From positions 1 through 64,000 of the forward strand of contig CAIVGN010000046.1 of the NCBI GenBank assembly GCA_903905455.1: 64,000 bases of DNA. Reading direction: 5' to 3'. The notes below the pieces were generated by a model, which saw only the letters and a list, made by a program, of their open reading frames with translations, was not told the origin of the DNA and searched no databases. Below are positions 10,432-33,299 of this stretch, in pieces; the first letter of the stretch is position 1; the number at the start of each line of letters is the position of its first letter. The translations under genes were made by a program, and so were the position numbers. Origin of the DNA: an uncultured Archangium sp. (GTDB lineage: Bacteria; Myxococcota; Myxococcia; Myxococcales; Myxococcaceae).

Positions 10432-12063
10432 ATGATCCGAGTCGTCGCCAGCCTGGTTGTCCTGATCTGCGGAAGCGCAGTGGCCGCCGGCGGCAACGCC
10501 GAAGACGCGTACAAGGACGCCAAGGGCGCCTACCAGAAGCTCAAGGACGACCCCAAGCGCCGCTCGCTGCGGCACCACTGGCAGAACGTGGCGAAGAAGT
10601 TCGAGGCGGTGGCCAGCAAGTACCCGAAGAGCGAGCGCGCCCCGGAGGCGCTCTTCAACTCCGGCGAGCTGAACAACGAGCTCTCGCGCATCTCGCAGCG
10701 CGACGACGACCGCGAGCTGGCCAAGCGCAGCTATCGGCGCCTCATCGACGGCTGGCCCAAGCACAAGCTGTGTGACGACGCCGCCTGGTCCCTGGCTCAC
10801 CTCCTGGCCGACAGGGAAGCCGACCCCACGGGCGCGCGGCAGGTGCTCGAGGCGGGCCTCAAGGGCGCCGGAGATCGCAAGAAGGACATCCAGGCGATGC
10901 TGGCCGCGCTCCCCAGTGAGGCCGCCCGCCCGGTGGTCGCCACGCGGGCCCCTGCGCCCCCCCGCGGCGCCCCGGCGCGCCCCGCCCCTGTCGTGGCCGA
11001 CGAGCCCGAGCCCCGGAGCCGCAGCGTCAACGACGTCGCCGAGGCCATCCGCCGCGCCATCAAGCCCCTCGAGGTCGCCACCCGCACCGGCGACGACGGC
11101 CCGCTCACCGCGCAGGCCCGCCGCAGCGCGCCCACCCGCCCGGCCGACGACGAGAAGCCGCGGGCCTTCGACCAGGTCGACCCCGAGGGCGCGGCCTCCG
11201 ACGAGGTGGTGGAGGCCTCCGAGCCGGTGGTGGCCAGCCTCGCCGAGAAGCTGCGCGACGTGCGCGTGGGCGCCCGCGTGGTGGGCAACGACGACTCCGA
11301 GACCCGGGCGAAGTTCAAGAAGCTCGCGAAGGCCGAGCACGGCGCCGAGCTCTCGCTGGCCCAGCAGCTGGGCCTCAAGGTGCGCCGGGTGGTGGTCGAC
11401 GCGGGCCACGGCGGCCACGACACCGGCGCCATCGGCCCGGGGGGCACGCGGGAAAAGGACGTCTCCCTGGCCATCGCCAAGAAGCTCGCGGCGCGCCTGG
11501 AGGAGGCCGGCCTCGAGGTGGTGCTCACCCGCGACGACGACACCTACGTGAAGCTCGAAGATCGCACCCGCATCGCCAACCGCCAGAAGGGCGACCTCTT
11601 CATCTCGGTGCACTGCAACGCGGCCCCCAGCAAGGCCCTGCGCGGCATCGAGACCTACACCCTCAACACCTCGTCCAACCGCTACTCCATCCGCCTCGCG
11701 GCAAGGGAGAACGCCACCACCGAGCGCGGCGTGGGGGACCTCCAGTACATCCTCGCGGACCTCGCCACCAAGGCGAACACCGGCGAGTCCTCGCACCTCG
11801 CCGAGCGCGTGCAGCGCTCGCTCATCCGCAACCTCTCCGAGTCGTACAAGAACGTGAAGGATCTCGGGAACAAGGAGGCCCTGTTCTTCGTGCTCCTCGG
11901 GGCGAAGATGCCGGCGATTCTCGTCGAGACCTCCTTCCTCTCGCACCCCGAAGAAGAAGAGCGCCTGGCCGACGACGCCTACCAGCAGAAAGTGGCCGAC
12001 TCGATCTCCGAGGCCGTGGGCGGCTTCCTCGAAGAGCGGAACAAGGTGGCCCAGGTCGACTGA
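10432..12063 (+). CDS. Periplasmic N-acetylmuramoyl-L-alanine amidase (Amidase_3) with N-terminal TPR-like domain
   Basis: This enzyme cleaves the amide bond between N-acetylmuramic acid and the stem peptide during daughter-cell separation or wall remodelling. The 543-residue product, from ATG 10432, opens with a signal peptide (residues 1-20, ending A-V-A-A-G). A helical repeat region resembling TPR or BamD-like domains (about 22-160) follows, then a proline/alanine-rich linker and a C-terminal Amidase_3 domain from about 318. Zinc ligands and catalytic residues are visible: His326 in D-A-G-H-G-G-H-D, Glu341 in T-R-E-K-D, His394 in S-V-H-C-N-A and Glu499 in L-V-E-T-S-F-L-S-H. It resembles AmiC-type enzymes but has a TPR-like rather than an AMIN N-terminus. 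Confidence 0.93.
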   Translation: MIRVVASLVVLICGSAVAAGGNAEDAYKDAKGAYQKLKDDPKRRSLRHHWQNVAKKFEAVASKYPKSERAPEALFNSGELNNELSRISQRDDDRELAKRSYRRLIDGWPKHKLCDDAAWSLAHLLADREADPTGARQVLEAGLKGAGDRKKDIQAMLAALPSEAARPVVATRAPAPPRGAPARPAPVVADEPEPRSRSVNDVAEAIRRAIKPLEVATRTGDDGPLTAQARRSAPTRPADDEKPRAFDQVDPEGAASDEVVEASEPVVASLAEKLRDVRVGARVVGNDDSETRAKFKKLAKAEHGAELSLAQQLGLKVRRVVVDAGHGGHDTGAIGPGGTREKDVSLAIAKKLAARLEEAGLEVVLTRDDDTYVKLEDRTRIANRQKGDLFISVHCNAAPSKALRGIETYTLNTSSNRYSIRLAARENATTERGVGDLQYILADLATKANTGESSHLAERVQRSLIRNLSESYKNVKDLGNKEALFFVLLGAKMPAILVETSFLSHPEEEERLADDAYQQKVADSISEAVGGFLEERNKVAQVD

Positions 12064-22271: not shown

Positions 22272-23423
22272 ATGTTTCGTAAGACCCTGCTCGCCGCGTG
22301 CGCCGCGGCGTTGACGGCTGTCCCCTGCCTTGCCGACGTCACGCCGGTCGACCCGAAGGGCGTGATCGAGGCGCGGGTGTCCGCGGAGCCGAAGATCCAG
22401 ATCGCCATCCTCCTCGACACCTCGGGGAGCATGGACGGGCTGATCAACCAGACCCGCGAGCAGCTCTGGCGCATCGTGAACACCTTCGCGACGGCCAAGA
22501 AGGAAGGCAAGCGCCCGCGGCTCGAGCTGGCGCTCTACCAGTACGGCAACGACGGCATCCCCGCGGCGCAGCACCACGTGCAGCGCATCGTTCCCCTCAC
22601 CACCGATCTCGACAAGGTGTCCGAGGCGCTCTTCAAGCTCTCGACCAATGGCGGCAACGAGTACTGCGGCGCGGCCATCTCGCACGCGCTCGGCGAGCTC
22701 GAGTGGAGCCCCAGCCCGAAAGACCTGAAGCTCATCTACATCGCCGGCAACGAGCCCTTCACCCAGGGGCCCATCTCGTTCCGCGACTCGGTCAAGGCGT
22801 CCATTGGCCGCGGCATCGTGGTGAACACCATTCACGCGGGCACGCAGGAACAGGGCATCTCCGACAGCTGGGCCGAGGCCGCGAAGCTCGCTGACGGCAA
22901 CTTCCTCTTCATCGACAGCAACCGCGCGGTGGCCCGGGTCGACGCGCCGCAGGACGCCGAGCTCGCCCGCCTCTCGCAGGCCATGAACAAGACGTACATC
23001 GCCTACGGCGGCGAGGGGAAGGCGGCCGTCGCCCGCCAGGAGGCGCAGGACAAGAACGCCATGGGCGTGAGCGCCGGCAGCATGTCGACGCGCGCCGCCG
23101 CCAAGGCCTCGCCGATGTACCGCAACGGCGACTGGGATCTCGTCGACGCCAAGAAGGAAGGCAAGCCGATGAAGGCGGTCGCCGCCGACGAGCTCCCCAC
23201 CGAGATGCGCGGCATGAACGACAAGGAGCGCGACGCCTACGTGGAGAAGAAGGGGAAGGAGCGCTCGGACCTCCAGGCGCAGATCGCGAAGATCTCCGCC
23301 GAGCGCGAGCAGTACGTGCAGGGCGAGCTGAAGAAGAAGGCGAAGGACTCGAGCAAGACGATGGACGACGCCCTCATCGAGTCGGCGAAGAGCCAGGCGC
23401 AGAAGGCCGACTTCGCCTTCTGA
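22272..23423 (+). CDS. Secreted von Willebrand factor type A domain protein
   Basis: A 383-residue protein with a signal peptide (residues 1-21, ending P-C-L-A-D) and a strong ribosome site (AGGAG) ahead of ATG 22272. The vWA domain spans about 41-225, with an intact metal-ion-dependent adhesion site D-T-S-G-S (Asp49, Ser51, Ser53) and the later threonine and aspartate strands. The remaining 150 residues are Lys/Glu/Ala-rich and likely coiled coil (E-K-K-G-K-E-R-S-D-L-Q-A-Q-I-A-K-I). A periplasmic metal-dependent protein-binding role is likely, but the partner is unknown. It stands alone, convergent with the phosphatase gene. Confidence 0.85.
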   Translation: MFRKTLLAACAAALTAVPCLADVTPVDPKGVIEARVSAEPKIQIAILLDTSGSMDGLINQTREQLWRIVNTFATAKKEGKRPRLELALYQYGNDGIPAAQHHVQRIVPLTTDLDKVSEALFKLSTNGGNEYCGAAISHALGELEWSPSPKDLKLIYIAGNEPFTQGPISFRDSVKASIGRGIVVNTIHAGTQEQGISDSWAEAAKLADGNFLFIDSNRAVARVDAPQDAELARLSQAMNKTYIAYGGEGKAAVARQEAQDKNAMGVSAGSMSTRAAAKASPMYRNGDWDLVDAKKEGKPMKAVAADELPTEMRGMNDKERDAYVEKKGKERSDLQAQIAKISAEREQYVQGELKKKAKDSSKTMDDALIESAKSQAQKADFAF

Positions 23424-24128
23424 TCACCGCGCGGCGACCTGGCGGAAGACCCACGTCAGGTCGCGGCCGATCTGCTCCACCCGCTCGTCATAGGTCCTCG
23501 CTTCCGACTCCGTGCCGTCCGCGACCTTCGGGTCGAGGTACGGCACGGAGACGCGTTTGCGGGCGCCGGCGACGAAGGGGCAGGCGGCGTCGGCCTGGGT
23601 GCAGGTCATCACGGCCACGAAGTCGGCGTGCGGGTTGGCCTCGTCGGTGATCGCCTTGGAGAACGCGTCGAAGGGCGCGTCCGCGGGCGAGAGGCGAACG
23701 GCGTAGCGGGGGTTCTGCACGCCCTCGGTGACGCCTTCGATCCCGAAGCCGACCCGCAGCAGCGCAGCCACTGCTCGCGGGTTGAAGGCCGTCGCCTCGG
23801 TGCCGCCCGAATACGTCGTCACCCCGGTGAGCCCGGCGTGGCGCGCGGCCGCGAGCCCGAGCACCTGGGCCATGTGGCTGCGCCGCGAGTTGTGGGTGCA
23901 GACGAAGAGCACCGCGAGGGCGCCGCTTCGCTCCCGCTCCGACCGGAGCGCGGCCACGAGCGCCTCGAGCTTGGCGCGGTGGGTCTCGTCGCCGGTGGGC
24001 CCCGCGGCTTCCCAGGCGGTGAGGTGCTGTTCGAGCGTGTCATTCATGGCGGTGGGTCTCGGGGAAGGCATCGACCGGCAGGCAGGGAGGGCCGCGAGCA
24101 CGGAGCAGAGGAGGGCGCGAAGCAGCAT
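23424..24128 (-). CDS. Low-molecular-weight tyrosine phosphatase / ArsC-like protein with possible lipoprotein signal
   Basis: From ATG 24128 the product has 234 residues and begins with a hydrophobic segment ending L-P-A-C-R (Cys17), a possible lipobox. Starting at ATG 24047 would instead give a cytosolic form without it. The catalytic P-loop is F-V-C-T-H-N-S-R-R-S (Cys77, Arg83 region), matching the CX5R signature of the LMW phosphatase/arsenate reductase superfamily. A downstream C-T-Q-A-D-A-A-C-P pair (C-X6-C) resembles the resolving cysteines of thioredoxin-coupled arsenate reductases. The substrate may be phosphotyrosine or arsenate. It is the last gene of a tight minus-strand cluster, 13 bp after the JAMM gene. 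Confidence 0.8.
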   Translation of the reverse strand: MLLRALLCSVLAALPACRSMPSPRPTAMNDTLEQHLTAWEAAGPTGDETHRAKLEALVAALRSERERSGALAVLFVCTHNSRRSHMAQVLGLAAARHAGLTGVTTYSGGTEATAFNPRAVAALLRVGFGIEGVTEGVQNPRYAVRLSPADAPFDAFSKAITDEANPHADFVAVMTCTQADAACPFVAGARKRVSVPYLDPKVADGTESEARTYDERVEQIGRDLTWVFRQVAAR

Positions 24129-24141
24129 GGCCCGGTGCGAC

Positions 24142-24489
24142 TTAGTCGAGACCGGAGGCCCGGCGAAGGGAGGGAACCCACGACGGGGCAGGGGCCGCGA
24201 CCGCGTCGTCACCGTCACCGCGCACCAGGTACTGCGTGGGCGTCACCAGCGAGAACCGCAAGCGCCGCCCCAGGGCCTGGTCGAGCGCGACCATGGTGCT
24301 CGCGTCTTCAGCGCTGAAGGCGTCGGGGCCGACCGGGTGGGAATGCGCGAGCTCCACGAGGTCGGCGCGGTGCGCCCAGATCGCCTCCCAGCGGGCGCGC
24401 GAGTCCGGCAGGGCCAGCGCCGTCTCGCCTGCGTCGCTCCACAACACGACGTCACCAGGGCCGATGAGGAAGAAGACCTCCCGCTTCAC
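24142..24489 (-). CDS. JAMM/MPN-type metallopeptidase, short (JAB family)
   Basis: A 115-residue protein, close to a minimal JAB domain. The zinc-binding motif H-x-H-x7-S-x-x-D is exact: His49, His51, Ser59 and Asp62 in A-H-S-H-P-V-G-P-D-A-F-S-A-E-D. Acidic residues ahead of it (Glu35, Glu46) could supply the catalytic glutamate. JAMM proteases cleave isopeptide or peptide bonds C-terminal to ubiquitin-like modules, or process sulfur-carrier precursors in bacteria. No ubiquitin-like, E1 or E2 gene is adjacent. The GTG start overlaps the stop of the upstream unknown gene by 4 nt (GTGA), so it is translationally coupled to it. Confidence 0.85.
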   Translation of the reverse strand: MKREVFFLIGPGDVVLWSDAGETALALPDSRARWEAIWAHRADLVELAHSHPVGPDAFSAEDASTMVALDQALGRRLRFSLVTPTQYLVRGDGDDAVAAPAPSWVPSLRRASGLD

Positions 24490-25457
24490 GGTGCCCTCAA
24501 GATCACCAGCGCGTCGGTGTCGATCGCTTCCTTGATCACCGCGGGCAACGAATCGAGGGTGACCAGCTCGTCGCGGGGCGGGTGCCCCAGGCAGATGCCC
24601 GAGTCGATGACCTGCAGGGTGTGCTCGTCGACGAGGCTGATGAAGCGCTCACCCATGAAGGCGAAGACCACCTCGAGCTGTCGCGGGCCGGCGTGGCGGC
24701 ACGACTCCAGCGTGGCGCCCGCCTTGTCCAGGGCACCAGCGGCCCGCTCCTCGGAGTCTCGGGCGTCGTGGACTCGCAGCTCGCGTGCGGCCTGGACCTC
24801 GGCGCGCAGGTGGGCCGCGGTGAGCCGCGCCCTGCGCTCGCGAAGCTCTCGCTCGGTCTCCTCCCGCTCTGCGATGAGCGCTCGCACCACCGCTTCGGCC
24901 TCGGTGGCGCCGCCTTCGGCGACACGCCCTACGTGCCCTCGGACCTCTGCGGCCGCCAAGGGGACGTAGAGCTTCCGCGCGGCCTGCTCGAGGAGCGCGT
25001 ACCCGTAGGCGGCGCGCAGCGGCGCAGGCACCGCCTTCAGCCCCGACAGCGAGGCGCCCCGTGCGAGCGCCTCCCGCACCGCACCCTCGGCCTCCGACTC
25101 GAACTCGAGCCCCTCGAAGAGCAGCGCGCCCCCGTGCCACCGCCGGGCACTCACGGGCGAAAAGCGCGGGGCTTCTTCTTCGGGGAGCAGGTGCAGCGGC
25201 TCGGCGCGCGCGGACTCGCCGACCAGCCGTTCACGCCACAGGAAGCCCCGCACCTTCGGCAACGCGCCAAGTTCTTCGGGCGCGGCCGGCCCCGCCACGT
25301 GCGCGACGCGCCCCTTGAGCTCGAAGCGGTACCAGCCCACGCGCTCGGGCCGGGTGCCCAGCCGCAGCCTGCGCCCGGGCGCGTCGATGCTCGCCCCTCC
25401 GAGCCACGGCGCGATCACCGCGTCGATCTTCCCGAGGAACTTGCGGTAGTCGACCAC
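24486..25457 (-). CDS. Unknown three-part protein between vWA and JAMM genes
   Basis: A 323-residue protein with no family I recognise. GTG 25457 starts 3 bp after the vWA stop. The N-terminal 130 residues look globular and beta-rich (L-R-L-G-T-R-P-E-R-V-G-W-Y-R-F-E-L-K-G). Residues about 130-245 are strongly helical, Ala/Arg/Glu-rich and probably coiled coil. The C-terminal 75 residues form a second compact domain (L-E-V-V-F-A-F-M-G-E-R-F-I-S-L-V, then V-I-D-S-G-I-C-L-G-H-P-P). No signal peptide or membrane helix, so it is cytosolic. As the middle gene it is the natural partner or substrate of the JAMM and vWA proteins. The D-S-G-I-C-L-G-H-P motif may mark the family. Confidence 0.8.
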   Translation of the reverse strand: MVDYRKFLGKIDAVIAPWLGGASIDAPGRRLRLGTRPERVGWYRFELKGRVAHVAGPAAPEELGALPKVRGFLWRERLVGESARAEPLHLLPEEEAPRFSPVSARRWHGGALLFEGLEFESEAEGAVREALARGASLSGLKAVPAPLRAAYGYALLEQAARKLYVPLAAAEVRGHVGRVAEGGATEAEAVVRALIAEREETERELRERRARLTAAHLRAEVQAARELRVHDARDSEERAAGALDKAGATLESCRHAGPRQLEVVFAFMGERFISLVDEHTLQVIDSGICLGHPPRDELVTLDSLPAVIKEAIDTDALVILRAP

Positions 25458-25460
25458 GCG

Positions 25461-27230
25461 TCAGGCGACCTTCAGCTCGAGGAGCTTCGTCCTCATCACC
25501 CGCTCGACCCAGCCCTGCTGCGGGGCCGCGCCGACCGCCACCGGCGCATCGAGCAACGCCTTGAGTACGCGCGTCACCTGGTACGGGTCGTCGAACTGCG
25601 AGACGTTCACCTCGCTGAAGGGCACGCGCATGAACGACGCGCAGGTGCGCACCGTGTTGCCGCGCGCTCCCTGGCCGGCCACCGACACCAGCATCGCCAT
25701 CGCCGAGACCGCGAAGCCTGCGTCGCGGAACGAGCGCGCGAACTGGTCGCCCGCCTCGCCGGCCTCGTCACCCACGACGATCACCACCAGGCGCGCCTCC
25801 GGGGGCAGCGTCAGCTCCGAGGCCAGCGCGCGCACGCCCGCCGCGTGCACCGTGCCGCCCTCGGCGTTGATGCCCTTGAGCATGTGCTGCACGGCGGCGC
25901 GCGTGGCGGCCTTGGGGCGCAGCACCGTGCCCATGGTGTCGAAGGTGGCGATGTGGAGCTTCTCCAGGGGGAACCCGGCGAGGATCTTCGAGAGCGCCTC
26001 CTTGGACTGTTCGATCGCCCCCTGCATCGAGCCCGACTTGTCGATGAGGAACATCACGCGCACGTCGACGTCCTTCGTCGCCTCGCTCACCGCCGAGCGC
26101 GCGGCGACGTCCGCGGCCTCCACGAGCTTCTCGCGCAGTGCCTTGCTGCGGACGTTCTTCGCGATGTTGAGCGAGCGCTGATCCGTCGAGGTGCCGATGG
26201 CCTGCTCCCACCGCGCGCGGATCTCCGGGTCGGCCATCAGGCCCAGCTCTTCGAGCGTCGGCGTGAGGATGCGCAGGTCGCGGTCGGACAACGAGGGGAA
26301 CACCGCGGCCATGATCGCCGGGGTGAGGCCGAGGTCCTTCGGCAGCCGGCCCACCACGTCCTTGTAGGAGAGCCGCTGCGTCTCGATGGCCTCGCAGACT
26401 TCCGCCTCGCTCAGGCCGTCGAAGCGCTCCTGCTTGTCGAGCTTGAGCGTGCCCAGGCCCACGGTGCGGTGGCCGCCTTCCGCCTGCTTCTGCTTCCAGC
26501 CGAGGATCTCGAAGTATGCCTGGCTCGCGGGCTTGTAGCCGCACTTGCGCGTGAGGTCCTTGATGGTCTCCTTGAAGCCCGCCTTCACCAGGCCCTTGAG
26601 CATCGCGGGGTTGTTCTCGCGCATGGCCAGCCACTTCTGCGCGGCGCGCTTCCACCGGCCCAGCGGCGGCTTCTTCGACGCGGGGTCGCCGAAGCCGGCC
26701 TTGCGGTTGAGCGCGGCGATCTCCTTCGTCTCGAGCAACTGGGCCACGCGCAGCACGGCCTTGGGCGTCATCATGCGCGCCGACTTCTTCTCGTAGAACA
26801 GCAGCATCGCCTCGCCGATCTGCCTCAGGTCGTCGTCGTAGAAGGCCACCGAGCCGTCGTCTTCCTTCACCGGCTGGCCCGACCGCGCCTGGACCAGCAT
26901 CAGCGCCGCGCAGGCCACCTTGAGATCGCGCCAGTCGGTCTCCATCAACGCGTACGAGGCGAAGTGGGCCTTGAGATCGACGTTGAGCCGGTAGATCTCG
27001 AGCAGCTTCTCGTAGATCCGCACCGCCGCCGCCACGTGCAGGCCCGGGTCGACGTCGCGCGCACCCTTGGGGCGTGGCTGGCCCTTCTTCGGGCGCGGCT
27101 GCCAGGTGCCGTTGACCTCGATGCCGGGGCGGTTGTGCCACAGGTGCGCCGAGCTCGAGAGCACGAGGTCGAGCAGCTTCTCGGCGGGGCCCAGCTGCGC
27201 TTCGGGGAGCAACGGCTTCGCGATGGCCAT
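25461..27230 (-). CDS. Cytosolic vWA protein with TROVE-like helical N-terminus
   Basis: Start ATG 27230 is preferred because AGGAG precedes it by 8 nt; an in-frame start at 27278 lacks this. The 589-residue product has a helical region to about residue 385, rich in amphipathic helices (A-A-V-R-I-Y-E-K-L-L-E-I-Y and A-M-L-L-F-Y-E-K-K). A C-terminal vWA domain follows, with MIDAS D-K-S-G-S-M (Asp397, Ser399, Ser401). Helical repeats followed by vWA recall Ro60/TROVE RNA-binding proteins, and L-S-Y-K-D-V-V-G-R-L-P-K resembles the family region before vWA. TROVE membership is inference. No signal peptide. First gene of the four-gene minus operon; divergent from the EcsC gene. Confidence 0.85.
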   Translation of the reverse strand: MAIAKPLLPEAQLGPAEKLLDLVLSSSAHLWHNRPGIEVNGTWQPRPKKGQPRPKGARDVDPGLHVAAAVRIYEKLLEIYRLNVDLKAHFASYALMETDWRDLKVACAALMLVQARSGQPVKEDDGSVAFYDDDLRQIGEAMLLFYEKKSARMMTPKAVLRVAQLLETKEIAALNRKAGFGDPASKKPPLGRWKRAAQKWLAMRENNPAMLKGLVKAGFKETIKDLTRKCGYKPASQAYFEILGWKQKQAEGGHRTVGLGTLKLDKQERFDGLSEAEVCEAIETQRLSYKDVVGRLPKDLGLTPAIMAAVFPSLSDRDLRILTPTLEELGLMADPEIRARWEQAIGTSTDQRSLNIAKNVRSKALREKLVEAADVAARSAVSEATKDVDVRVMFLIDKSGSMQGAIEQSKEALSKILAGFPLEKLHIATFDTMGTVLRPKAATRAAVQHMLKGINAEGGTVHAAGVRALASELTLPPEARLVVIVVGDEAGEAGDQFARSFRDAGFAVSAMAMLVSVAGQGARGNTVRTCASFMRVPFSEVNVSQFDDPYQVTRVLKALLDAPVAVGAAPQQGWVERVMRTKLLELKVA

Positions 27231-28615: not shown

Positions 28616-30231
28616 GCACCGCCCTGGCGCAGCTCGAGCAGGCCGTCCGGTCCCGCTCCCCGATCGAAGCCGTGGTGGCCGCGTGCCGCGCGTGGGCGCT
28701 CGTTCCCTCGACCCGGCTGGCGCGCATCGCCCGCGGGCTGGCGGCACAGGCCCCCGGTGACGCGGTCGCTGGCGCGAACCAGGAGGAACGCGAGGCCGCC
28801 TGGCAGGCGATGGCCGCGCGCGCCGGTCCGGTCGAACTGCAGGACCTGCTGGCCACCCCCTGGAGCAAGAAGCCGAAGGACGCCGCCGCGCGGCTCTCGC
28901 AGTTGAAGCGTCTCGGGCCGGACCCCCGCATCGTCGGCGCGCTGCTCGACCTCGATACCGGGGGGCGCTACCCGAGCGCCGCGGGTCACCGCTTCTGGCA
29001 AGACGCCTACGAGCTCCTGCTCTCGTGGGGCTCGGTGGAGGCGGCGACGCGCGTTCCCCGCGATCTCTCCGCCTCGGACTACGCCTCCCCGTGGACCACC
29101 GCGCGCTACGGCGCGATCTTCGAGCCGCTCACGGTGCGCTGGGCCGGGCGCTGGCCGGTGGAGCCGTCGCTCGAGGCTTGGGCGAACGACGCGCTGCTCG
29201 CCCTCGAGGCGAGGCTCGAGCCCCGTCGCGAGTTGGTCGGCGGGCTCCTCGCCGCCGTGCACGCCGCGCCCCACGAAGACTCGCCGAAGCTGGTGCTCTC
29301 CGACGCGCTCACGGAGCAGGGTGACCTGCGCGGCGAGTTCATCGCGTTGCAGTTCGCGCACGCCGCCGGGGAGCTGACCATGGGCAAGCGCGAGCGCATG
29401 CAGCGGCTGCTCTCGGCCTCGGGCAGCAGCTGGTTCGATGGCCTCGAGGGGCAGGTGGCGCCGCTCGCCGTGTTCCACAAGGGCTTCCTGCGCGAGGTGC
29501 GCCTCGAGACGCGGACGCCCAACGCATCGTTGGCCGGGTGGGCCACGGTGGAGACGATCGACACGGCGGGCATCGCCGGTGCGTGGTCGGGCTTCCTCAA
29601 CCACCTCGAGGGTGTCCAATCCCTGCGCTCCTTGCGCGGCGCGACGCTGGAGGAACTGGCGCGCCTCGGCTCCGCGCGCGACTGGGGGCTGCTCGAGGTC
29701 GAGCACTTCGGCGGGCGCGACTTCGCGGCTCCTGCGTGGACGGTGGAGCGGCTCCGCCTCAAGGGGAACATCGACCAGGCGTCGTGGTGGCTGCTGGGCA
29801 CCCCGTTGCTCCCGCGCACGCGGGCGCTCGAGTTCTCCCTGACCCAGAGCTTCGACCGGGTGGGCCCGACCCTCCGCGAGCTCGAGTCCAGGGCGCCCGG
29901 CGTGGCGCGCCTCTCCTTCTCGTCGATGCCCCCGCCCTGGCCGACGCCGTGGCACGGCGCCTGGAAGCTCGACCTCGAGCGCGACGCGAAGGGGCGCTTC
30001 TCCCGGGGCACGCTGTCGCTGGGCGACGAGGTGCTCACCGGCCTCGATCTCGCCCTGGCGAGCCTCGCGCCGAAGCAGCTCAAGGCCCTGGCCGTGACCT
30101 CGGTGCTCCGCCGCGGGCCGGTGTGGCGCGCCTCGACGCAGGCGATGATCGCGCAACACGTCGCCGGCACCTTCGACCTCGAGAAGCCCACCGCGTTGGC
30201 GCCCAGGCCGGTGATCCACGAAGGTCGCTAG
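28612..30231 (+). CDS. TIGR02996 (repeat-companion) domain protein
   Basis: A 539-residue cytosolic protein. Residues about 214-249 match the TIGR02996 domain (A-A-P-H-E-D-S-P-K-L-V-L-S-D-A-L and G-D-L-R-G-E-F-I-A-L-Q), known chiefly from Myxococcales and Planctomycetes. It usually accompanies leucine-rich or other degenerate repeats. The N-terminal 200 residues are helical (A-V-V-A-A-C-R-A-W-A-L) with a W-x-x-A/Y-x-L pattern. The C-terminal half resembles irregular LRR-like units such as L-R-S-L-R-G-A-T-L-E-E-L. The function is unknown. It shares a 4-bp convergent overlap with the DUF58 gene. Confidence 0.8.
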   Translation: MSTALAQLEQAVRSRSPIEAVVAACRAWALVPSTRLARIARGLAAQAPGDAVAGANQEEREAAWQAMAARAGPVELQDLLATPWSKKPKDAAARLSQLKRLGPDPRIVGALLDLDTGGRYPSAAGHRFWQDAYELLLSWGSVEAATRVPRDLSASDYASPWTTARYGAIFEPLTVRWAGRWPVEPSLEAWANDALLALEARLEPRRELVGGLLAAVHAAPHEDSPKLVLSDALTEQGDLRGEFIALQFAHAAGELTMGKRERMQRLLSASGSSWFDGLEGQVAPLAVFHKGFLREVRLETRTPNASLAGWATVETIDTAGIAGAWSGFLNHLEGVQSLRSLRGATLEELARLGSARDWGLLEVEHFGGRDFAAPAWTVERLRLKGNIDQASWWLLGTPLLPRTRALEFSLTQSFDRVGPTLRELESRAPGVARLSFSSMPPPWPTPWHGAWKLDLERDAKGRFSRGTLSLGDEVLTGLDLALASLAPKQLKALAVTSVLRRGPVWRASTQAMIAQHVAGTFDLEKPTALAPRPVIHEGR

Positions 30232-31544
30232 AGCAGGCCGCGCTGCTTCACGTCGAGGTACGCGCTGACGCCCGCGCTCGCGAAGACCGCCGGCGTGCCG
30301 CGCACCACCCGGGCCCCGCCTTCTCGCAGCCGCGCGACGGTGGCCTCCCCCTCGCGCTCGAGCCGGGCCGCCACCACGCGCTGGTAGGCCTCGGCCGAGG
30401 TCTGGGGCACGGCCGTGGCCACGCGGTGCACGTCGGCGTCCTGCAGCGAGACGATCATCGGGAGGTGGCGTGGCACGAGGCGCCGGGTGCGCAGCAGCAG
30501 GGACTGCGCCGTCTCCAGGTCGAGCAGGTCCGTCAACACGATCACCAGCGAACGTCGCGCGCCCCGGGCGAAGGCCCGGTCCATCGCCGCGCCGTAGTTG
30601 CTCTCTTCGAGTACCGCCTCGACCTGGTAGAGCGCCTGGGCGATGGCCCGGAGCTGCTCCGCGCCCTTGCGCGGCGGCAGCCAGCGCTTCACGTCCTTGC
30701 CGAAGGCCATCACCCCCACCAGGTCACCCTGGTCGAGCGCGACCTTCGCCAGGCGCAGCGCGGCGTCGACGGCGTGATCGAGCTTGCGCCGGCCCTCGAC
30801 CTCGCCGGCCATGTGCCGCCCGCAATCAAGGAGCAGCAACACCTGCTGGTTCCGCTCGGGTTGGTGCTGGCGCACGAAGGGCCGCCCCCGGCGCGCGGTG
30901 GCCTTCCAGTCGATGCTCCGGCGATCGTCTCCCGGGCGGTACTCGCGCAGCGACTCGAACTCGCGGCCCTCGCTGCGGACGCGCACGATCCGCCGCGCGG
31001 CCTGGTCGTCGGCCCGCGCCAGCGTCAGCGCGTCACGGGTGAGCACCGAGAGATCGGGGAACACCTTCGCCGCGCCGGGCAGCGGCCTCGTCACTTGCCG
31101 CGCGCACAGCCCCAGCGGCCCTTCGAGGCGCAGGGTCACCGGGCCGAACTGGAGATCGCCCCGCGTCGCCGGCGTGAGCTTCCACTCGAGCTGGGTGGTG
31201 CCGGTCAACTCGAAGCGTTGGCGGTGGCCCGCGACGATCGGCCCCGGGGTCACCCAGTCGCGCACCTCGCCGCGCACGCTGCGCGTCACGCCCGGCGCGA
31301 GCCGCAGCTCCAGCTTCACCACGTTCGCGCGGCCCGACGAGAGCACCGGCTCGACGACCCGGTTGACCTCCACCTCGGCGCCTCGCGCGGCGCGCAGGAA
31401 GTCGATCACCACCAGGGCCACCAGCGCCACGTCGAAGGCCAGCACCAGCGGCGCGATGGCCGGCGAGAGCACCGCCACCACGGAGGGGATCAAGCTCAGG
31501 GCGGCCAGCCACAGCGCCCGCGTGGTCGGCACCGGCCGGCCCAT
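30228..31544 (-). CDS. DUF58 domain protein (MoxR-associated, vWA-like)
   Basis: A 438-residue protein with two membrane helices near the N-terminus (about 10-50), a beta-sandwich region, and the DUF58 signature E-F-E-S-L-R-E-Y-R-P-G-D-D-R-R-S-I-D-W-K followed by R-R-G-R-P-F-V-R. Downstream is a vWA-like domain (V-L-L-L-L-D-C-G-R-H-M), in which the usual D-x-S-x-S metal site is changed. The start lies 1 bp after the MoxR stop, so they form an operon. DUF58 proteins work with MoxR ATPases in assembling or activating envelope or metal-dependent complexes. Confidence 0.92.
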   Translation of the reverse strand: MGRPVPTTRALWLAALSLIPSVVAVLSPAIAPLVLAFDVALVALVVIDFLRAARGAEVEVNRVVEPVLSSGRANVVKLELRLAPGVTRSVRGEVRDWVTPGPIVAGHRQRFELTGTTQLEWKLTPATRGDLQFGPVTLRLEGPLGLCARQVTRPLPGAAKVFPDLSVLTRDALTLARADDQAARRIVRVRSEGREFESLREYRPGDDRRSIDWKATARRGRPFVRQHQPERNQQVLLLLDCGRHMAGEVEGRRKLDHAVDAALRLAKVALDQGDLVGVMAFGKDVKRWLPPRKGAEQLRAIAQALYQVEAVLEESNYGAAMDRAFARGARRSLVIVLTDLLDLETAQSLLLRTRRLVPRHLPMIVSLQDADVHRVATAVPQTSAEAYQRVVAARLEREGEATVARLREGGARVVRGTPAVFASAGVSAYLDVKQRGLL

Positions 31545-31545
31545 G

Positions 31546-32474
<929 letters not shown>

Positions 32475-32475
<1 letters not shown>

Positions 32476-33299
32476 CAGCGGCCCACGTCGCGCAGGCCGA
32501 AGATGGTGCCCACGATCGAGGTGATCGCCGCGAGCAGCGCCAGGATGAGCCCGAAGCTCGGCTTCGAGACCCACACCTCGTAGTTGCCGACCTGGCTGTT
32601 GGCGAGCGTCGGGTCCCACGAGAGCTTGAGGTACACGAGGCACCACAGGCCCGAGAACCCCACGCAGCCCAGCTGCGCGATCCACGGCAGCAGCGGGTTG
32701 AGGGTGGGGCTGGTCTTGCGCGTGCGCACGATGATGCCGGTGATCGCCATCGCGCCCAGCAGCGTCACCAGGATGCCCGACGAGAAGACGCCCAGCACGT
32801 CGCCGTCGGCCACGGTCTCCTTCCAGGGGAAGAAGGTGGCGAGCACCATCACCGAGACGCCGAAGAGGGCGAGCTTGTCCGCCATCGGCAGCTCCAGCAG
32901 GTACTTCTTCGTCTGCGACATCGCGTCTTCGGGGTCGAGCTGGCGGTCGACGACGAAGGCCTCCGGGGCGCGGCCGGCGTTCTCCTTCCAGTCGGCCTCC
33001 GAGAGCTGCGCGCGCCAATCCGGCTTCTGGGACGGCGGGGGCGCGTCGTCGTCGTCGCTGCGCCGCTTCGGGGCGGGCCGGGCGCCGGGGGGACGCTTCT
33101 TGGGCGCTCCGGGCTTGGCGGCGACCTTCCTCGCACCGCCGGGCTTGGTGGCCGGGCGGGCAGGGCGGCGCGGCGGTGGGGCCGGTGCGTCGTCGTCGGG
33201 CGGGGAGGCGTCGAGCAGCGAAGGGTCCAGGACCGCGTCGCAGTGGGGGCAAACGGCGGCGTCGTCGGCCACGTCGTTGTTGCAGGAGGGGCACATCAT
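32475..33299 (-). CDS. Zinc-ribbon membrane protein of the MoxR operon
   Basis: A 274-residue protein starting at ATG 33299. The N-terminus is a zinc ribbon (C-P-S-C-N-N-D-V and C-P-H-C). A long, low-complexity Pro/Ala/Lys linker follows (about 30-85), then a soluble stretch. Four hydrophobic helices lie between about 145 and 270, ending [11 protein letters not shown]. It is the first gene of the zinc-ribbon/MoxR/DUF58 operon. The composition suggests a membrane adaptor whose cytosolic ribbon docks partners. No catalytic motif is present. Confidence 0.85.

Follow-up and report, generated by a model that had tools for sequence, protein, structure and literature searches.

What system is encoded where genes for a vWA protein, for a middle protein of no Pfam or NCBIfam family (MID) and for a JAMM peptidase stand in a tight row, followed by a gene for an LMW-PTP/ArsC-like protein (PTP)? 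The row lies on the minus strand of contig CAIVGN010000046.1 of an uncultured Archangium sp. (assembly GCA_903905455.1), of which positions 1 to 64,000 were analysed as the window. An earlier note, made from the DNA sequence, had proposed that all four genes constitute a system in which MID would be the tag, the substrate or the sensor, and JAMM would remove tags. We find instead that vWA, MID and JAMM belong with a separate ubiquitin-like protein (UBL) and a minimal ThiF-like E1 to a set of five: the five genes form one unit, its predicted fold and its motifs fit, and the catalytic residues are conserved. We consider it probable, at about 60%, that a five-gene system of ubiquitin-like activation has been split in this genome, with vWA, MID and JAMM of the window as one half and UBL-E1 as the half that has moved elsewhere, the mechanism described below included.

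Results

A locus scan with the vWA protein, in which each species was represented by one genome, gave 36 loci, onto which the window proteins were mapped. The order vWA-MID-JAMM was kept at almost every locus whose flanks were long enough, and the trio loci came from Myxococcota, from two metagenome-assembled contigs labelled Planctomycetota (JAMM being seen in L044 only) and from two Virgisporangium genomes; the adjoining of vWA and JAMM genes, to which the earlier note had drawn attention, is a linkage kept across Myxococcota and beyond. By clustering of the neighbours, an E1 of about 190 aa was found after JAMM in 13 loci, and the gap before it, usually of a few hundred bases, encodes the small UBL of 76-91 aa. 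Loci of Polyangia type, those labelled Planctomycetota and those of Virgisporangium have the full row vWA-MID-JAMM-UBL-E1 in a single orientation, as do four large phage contigs. One locus titled Comamonas sp. KCTC 72670 (BNCN01000002.1, L057) has Myxococcus-type sequence and gene order and looks mislabelled or contaminated.

The assembly of the window itself carries UBL and E1 on another contig, C167, both on the minus strand, with E1 at 10808-11371 and UBL, which ends ...LYLRPKVPFGAA, at 11398-11631. The earlier statement that no UBL, E1 or E2 gene is at hand and that this is no standard conjugation cassette is true of the window but fails for the system as a whole, to which UBL and E1 belong.

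MID and E1 were found in the identical 20 of 60 relatives, and when the survey covered 195 Myxococcota genomes, MID, vWA, UBL and E1 were all in the identical 76, with no exceptions; counted by genus, all four occur in 16 of 90 and a partial set in none. A Fisher test on the counts from the 195 genomes takes no account of common descent, and its result is not read here as a probability. JAMM accompanies the others in 74 of the 76 genomes; in one of the remaining two (G002) the contig ends inside MID, and in the other (G077) UBL comes directly after MID, with no room for JAMM. Within a single genus (g16), furthermore, the set is present in three genomes and absent from four, so that even between close relatives its gain or loss has been that of the whole set. 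Where a positive genome consists of three or fewer contigs, which is the case for 18, E1 is always downstream of MID and on its strand, at a distance of 4.1-13.1 kb. Other arrangements occur as well: in G019, E1 follows JAMM, and a different contig has UBL together with an additional vWA copy, whereas the sole vWA of G129 is beside UBL-E1 with MID-JAMM elsewhere. The genes drift apart physically yet stay together as a set. Second vWA copies, apart from the MID-JAMM copy, were noticed near UBL (G019:C7:454446-456191) and near UBL-E1 (G127:C3:137781-139529).

Related E1 genes were found in Virus Rctr197k (KX853510, 197 kb) and in IMG/VR contigs. Profile searches recovered all five genes, ordered as in bacteria, from Rctr197k (L087 plus hit H3) and from contigs L090, L091 and L092 (233, 111 and 363 kb, respectively), and JAMM-UBL-E1 rows from L084 and L085. 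In the Rctr197k record, MID (KX853510.1, 2-1087 and upstream) is unannotated, with the opposite-strand coding sequence Rctr197k_234 in its place, and vWA is given only as a misc_feature. A phage-type vWA-MID-UBL-E1 row without JAMM in a Myxococcota genome (L093, G077:C199) may be a provirus or a binned phage contig. A 177-kb IMG/VR contig encodes a bacterial-like UBL (L088, 8001-8204), the other four genes not being found within 8 kb, and a viral contig with a row of ParB-related, JAB, small UBL and ThiF-domain genes (L086, 997-4897) is PRTRC-like and distinct from the five-gene system.

As for the fourth gene of the window, the row of four minus-strand genes with the gaps and motifs that had been described is borne out by coordinates and translations: a 3-bp gap separates vWA and MID, MID and JAMM overlap by 4 nt, and 13 bp lie between JAMM and PTP, with coding-type third-position GC (0.89-0.97) in all four. 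Such tight spacing would favour a four-gene unit independent of UBL and E1, a reading that we hold to be scarcely credible and that the distribution of the genes already refutes. The PTP gene (23424-24128, minus strand, ATG start, 234 aa, Pfam LMWPc 1e-7) occurs in 10 of the 195 Myxococcota genomes, usually unlinked to the system, and two of these genomes (G004 and G158) have no system at all; among relatives whose flanks were read, it is beside JAMM only in the window and in one sister genome (G005), whereas vWA and MID co-occur perfectly with UBL-E1. PTP is also a predicted lipoprotein, its N-terminus MLLRALLCSVLAALPAC reading as a lipoprotein signal with the lipobox LPAC, and the product should therefore be exported. 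PTP was ruled out as a fourth component by distribution and lipobox and is a passenger outside the system. Co-conservation among relatives favours the trio and goes against the fourth gene, so that of the four-gene system first proposed, vWA-MID-JAMM has stood and PTP has fallen away.

The UBL sequences encoded after JAMM in the bacterial loci all share the consensus MAxLNITYxG...VVDRF...R[IL]YLRPKVPFG, which is followed by a variable tail. Ubiquitin-like precursors have a strictly conserved glycine and a short disposable tail. In UBL, the C-terminal Gly is invariant in 22 aligned sequences including those of phages, as are R73, P74, K75, F78 and G79 across bacteria and phages; the acidic E34 and D60 are invariant too. 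The bacterial tails after FG comprise 0-12 residues (none, A, S, C, RV, AG, SSAR, GRRSA, AAAAR, GGARGA or AARYGLSRCVEN), and the phage proteins end in ...RPKT[P/A]FG and then V, R, S, RRRRLRG or long extensions. The model of UBL, with a predicted local distance difference test score (pLDDT) of 92.4, has the order beta-beta-alpha-beta-beta (strands 2-8 and 11-19, helix 25-38, strands 57-64 and 67-74), and its best VIA matches were mostly ubiquitin-like or beta-grasp proteins: PI3K RBD, PB1, protein G, a ubiquitin variant (Z 4.3, 2.4 Å, 60 residues) and NLE1-UBL, the last solved with the MDN1 MIDAS (metal-ion-dependent adhesion site) domain. The best BFVD match was an independent model of a 166-residue viral protein near the length of the Rctr197k UBL (template-modelling score 0.82). 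A beta-grasp-like fold is hence predicted for UBL.

JAMM (24142-24489, minus strand, GTG start, 115 aa, Pfam Prok-JAB 1e-5) has the exact motif H49-x-H51-x7-S59-xx-D62, as the earlier note had read it, together with Glu4. These five residues are all invariant in 19 bacterial sequences; in the alignment of the phage proteins, H49, H51, S59 and D62 are invariant too, and the N-terminal Glu is visible by eye while not being aligned by the profile. A role as tag remover, as suggested earlier, fits this protein.

MID (24486-25457, minus strand, GTG start, 323 aa) was modelled with a pLDDT of 91 as an OB-like beta domain (residues 11-119), a long helix of about 60 residues (184-245) and a C-terminal beta-meander containing Cys289, which is followed by a helix. 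Mpa, the proteasomal ATPase, has a tandem OB inter-domain to which the N-terminal beta domain is modestly similar (Z up to 5.4, where values below 8 may reflect only a common arrangement), as it is to single OB proteins. Cys289 lies within D-x-G-[IV]-C-L, of which G287, C289 and L290 are invariant in bacteria and phages. The order of helix, meander, Cys and helix resembles that of E2 enzymes, and GxCL is common to both. Homology of MID to E2 enzymes found no support, however: no E2 was returned by hmmscan, by a PDB profile search, by Foldseek, by VIA or by hhalign. MID is a candidate carrier of UBL through Cys289. The earlier suggestion of a tag, substrate or sensor was right in so far as MID is a true component of the system, but the part of the tag falls to a separate protein, UBL, and hence probably not to MID.

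E1 matched the profiles of MoeB (1.2e-11), ThiF, Uba4, UBA5 and Cap2, with a further match to ThiF at 3.7e-22; under the curated NCBIfam cut-offs it scored too low for each family (ThiF 77.3 vs 159, MoeB 57.7 vs 266, PRTRC_ThiF 30.5 vs 144.75). G15, G17 and S21 of its GxGAxGS site, D38, D40, K61, D104 and C156 are invariant in bacteria and phages. Cys156 aligns to the TC-x-EAG segment of MoeB, which we take to be the region of ThiF Cys184 and Uba4 Cys225. In PADLOC, E1 matched only the E1 domain of E1-E2 models, and UBL, MID, JAMM and vWA had no meaningful match.

The affinity of E1 to ThiF and MoeB, its nearest profiles, bears on the main rival explanation, in which UBL would carry sulfur in the manner of ThiS/MoaD/QbsE/CysO: JAMM would trim it, E1 would adenylate it, a thiocarboxylate would form, and the sulfur would be passed to a small molecule or RNA, with MID and vWA as the acceptor complex. 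UBL, E1 and JAMM are also the core of the operons for the siderophores pyridine-2,6-dithiocarboxylic acid (PDTC) and quinolobactin (PMC1779556), and the OB-like domain of MID is compatible with RNA binding. E1 has, however, neither a rhodanese domain nor the CxxC zinc site, the neighbour clustering revealed no recurring biosynthetic or sulfur gene after the set, UBL ends in FG rather than GG, and a pathway for a metabolite would hardly account for the presence of the same five genes in phages of 110-363 kb. We regard a sulfur-carrier pathway as unlikely.

vWA (25461-27230, minus strand, ATG start, 589 aa, Pfam VWA_2 1e-8) consists of a helical N-terminal region of about 385 aa and a C-terminal vWA domain. 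Its MIDAS is intact, as had been noted, with D397, S399 and S401 (DxSxS), T460 and D488, all of them invariant across bacteria and phages. A helical N-terminal region before a vWA with a MIDAS is also found in the TROVE-vWA proteins Ro60/Rsr, and the TROVE-like layout noted earlier may apply here; no TROVE match (PF05731) was found in the genome of the window, and hhalign gave a weak collinear alignment of about 311 columns at a probability of 4%, which is not significant. The N-terminal part by itself scored 0.2%, and a reversed control 0.1%. Among the components of the set, vWA shows the strongest conservation, with 60-89% identity among bacteria and 36-41% to the phage versions. Such conservation would be consistent with a non-covalent switch in which UBL is never conjugated: JAMM, E1 and vWA would control it, and the vWA-MIDAS would bind UBL as the Rea1-MIDAS binds Ytm1/Rsa4, perhaps in ribonucleoprotein assembly. 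Binding of a UBL by a MIDAS is established for Rea1 (PMC6624252), the NLE1-UBL/MDN1-MIDAS structure is among the fold matches of UBL, and the invariant E34 and D60 are acidic. The switch leaves unexplained, nonetheless, the GxGAxGS site and Cys156 of E1, Cys289 of MID and the FG terminus of UBL with its tails, and in our estimate it is quite improbable.

Around the four genes, another vWA protein, whose N-terminus resembles a signal peptide, is encoded at 22272-23423, convergent beside the PTP gene, and a vWA of this type is near the trio on the opposite strand in several relatives. About 3 kb from the vWA gene, a DUF58 gene adjoins a MoxR-type AAA+ ATPase, as judged by eye (30228-32500); DUF58 is not counted in the system because it is near vWA in only three relatives. 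No structured RNA near the operon was found in Rfam, and a plasmid search gave no match.

Discussion

How, then, would the five proteins act together? UBL would be made as a precursor from which JAMM cuts the tail after ...RPKVPFG, and the minimal E1 would adenylate the C-terminal glycine so exposed; Cys156 of E1 probably forms the thioester with UBL, as the chemistry of the family suggests. Trimming by JAMM and activation by E1 follow from the parts, and in these two steps we have good confidence. MID would then act as an E2 in function, though no homology to E2 enzymes can be demonstrated: its Cys289 would receive UBL and hand it on to a target protein. By analogy with the Rea1-MIDAS/UBL complexes, the MIDAS of vWA may bind and thereby recruit UBL, MID or the target. 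JAMM would also remove the modifier, and the modification would therefore be reversible. Protein conjugation and the E2-like role of MID are what we infer beyond trimming and activation; a role in transfer is the simplest one for MID because its invariant cysteine is kept together with UBL and E1. Taken in full, bacteria and large phages would share a so far undescribed pathway of ubiquitin-like protein conjugation, in which E1 is minimal, the E2 is replaced by a cysteine carrier of non-UBC type, made up of an OB-like domain, a coiled helix and a cysteine domain, and a vWA-MIDAS is the UBL receptor or target selector; this is a tentative proposal to which we give somewhat less than an even chance. 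The purpose could possibly be a cellular role or one in the conflict between phage and bacterium.

Several observations weigh against a ubiquitin-like activation system with this mechanism. In the genome of the window, the trio and the UBL-E1 half are on separate contigs and unlinked. Foldseek found no significant match of UBL in the PDB, hhalign no significant profile match to ubiquitin, ThiS or MoaD, and the VIA Z values of only 4-5 are modest statistics for a fold. For MID against E2, hhalign gave 0.3%, and no E2 was among the fold matches. E1 lacks the Arg of NxxRQ as well as the zinc CxxC of MoeB/ThiF. A dependence of the UBL tail on the presence of JAMM is suggestive only: the UBLs of G077 and L053, loci without JAMM, both stop exactly at FG, and tail-less UBLs are found at 2 of 20 loci with intact JAMM (Fisher 0.026), a link that rests on those two JAMM-lacking loci, with the absence from L053 referring to the locus only. 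Locus L050, whose JAMM is without its N-terminus, maybe through an assembly error, was excluded from this count.

Bacterial operons with UBL, E1 and JAB are already known (PMC1779556, PMC7159879, PMC11354881), including one vWA-containing type with Ubl ligases. Among the operons 6a-6e of Iyer, Burroughs and Aravind (2006; PMC1779556), type 6d, which is related to PRTRC cassettes, encodes a Ub-like protein, a JAB, an E1, an E2-like protein and an alpha-helical protein. The five-gene set is like type 6d in having, in one operon, a separate small UBL with a C-terminal Gly, a ThiF E1-like protein, a JAB and extra conserved proteins; in type 6d, by contrast, an E2 can be recognised, the JAB is extended at its N-terminus and a vWA is absent, whereas in the five-gene set E1 is a minimal domain of about 190 aa, JAMM has 115 aa, and vWA and MID are new to systems of this kind. 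With Bil (BilABCD) and Bub the set shares E1-driven activation and a JAMM expected to free the C-terminal glycine of UBL (PMC11354881; PMC13373217), but an E2 belongs to both Bil and Bub, BilA contains a pair of UBL domains, and BilD is a two-domain E1; the match of JAMM to BubCD in the PDB is at chance level (E 1.3).

The FtsH-type vWA-MoxR ternary systems (Kaur et al. 2020; PMC7159879) also combine a vWA gene with genes for Ubl, E1, E2 and JAB. Those systems carry MoxR, FtsH, a RING E3, EAD adaptors and caspase-like effectors; no MoxR, FtsH, RING E3, EAD or caspase-like family was recognised beside the five-gene set, whose neighbours were clustered and not all annotated. The PDTC/quinolobactin operons (type 4a; PMC1779556) likewise combine a ThiS-like UBL with JAB and E1, but their E1 is fused to rhodanese, biosynthetic genes are present, and there is no vWA or MID. 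A vWA-MID-JAMM-UBL-E1 set was not found described in the open literature, where an earlier mention in reviews is possible.

Conclusion

It seems, then, that the five-gene set is related to the ubiquitin tagging system and represents a bacterial form of it that had not been described. Only a small number of ubiquitin-like systems are known from bacteria, and most came to light via defence operons. The present set is kept in a large part of Myxococcaceae, occurs here and there in what the record labels give as two other phyla, and is whole in large phages, which raises the question of why phages have it. If conjugation is confirmed, the set would represent a separate solution for the transfer of a UBL to its targets, possibly without the E2 fold and with a vWA protein as one of its core parts.

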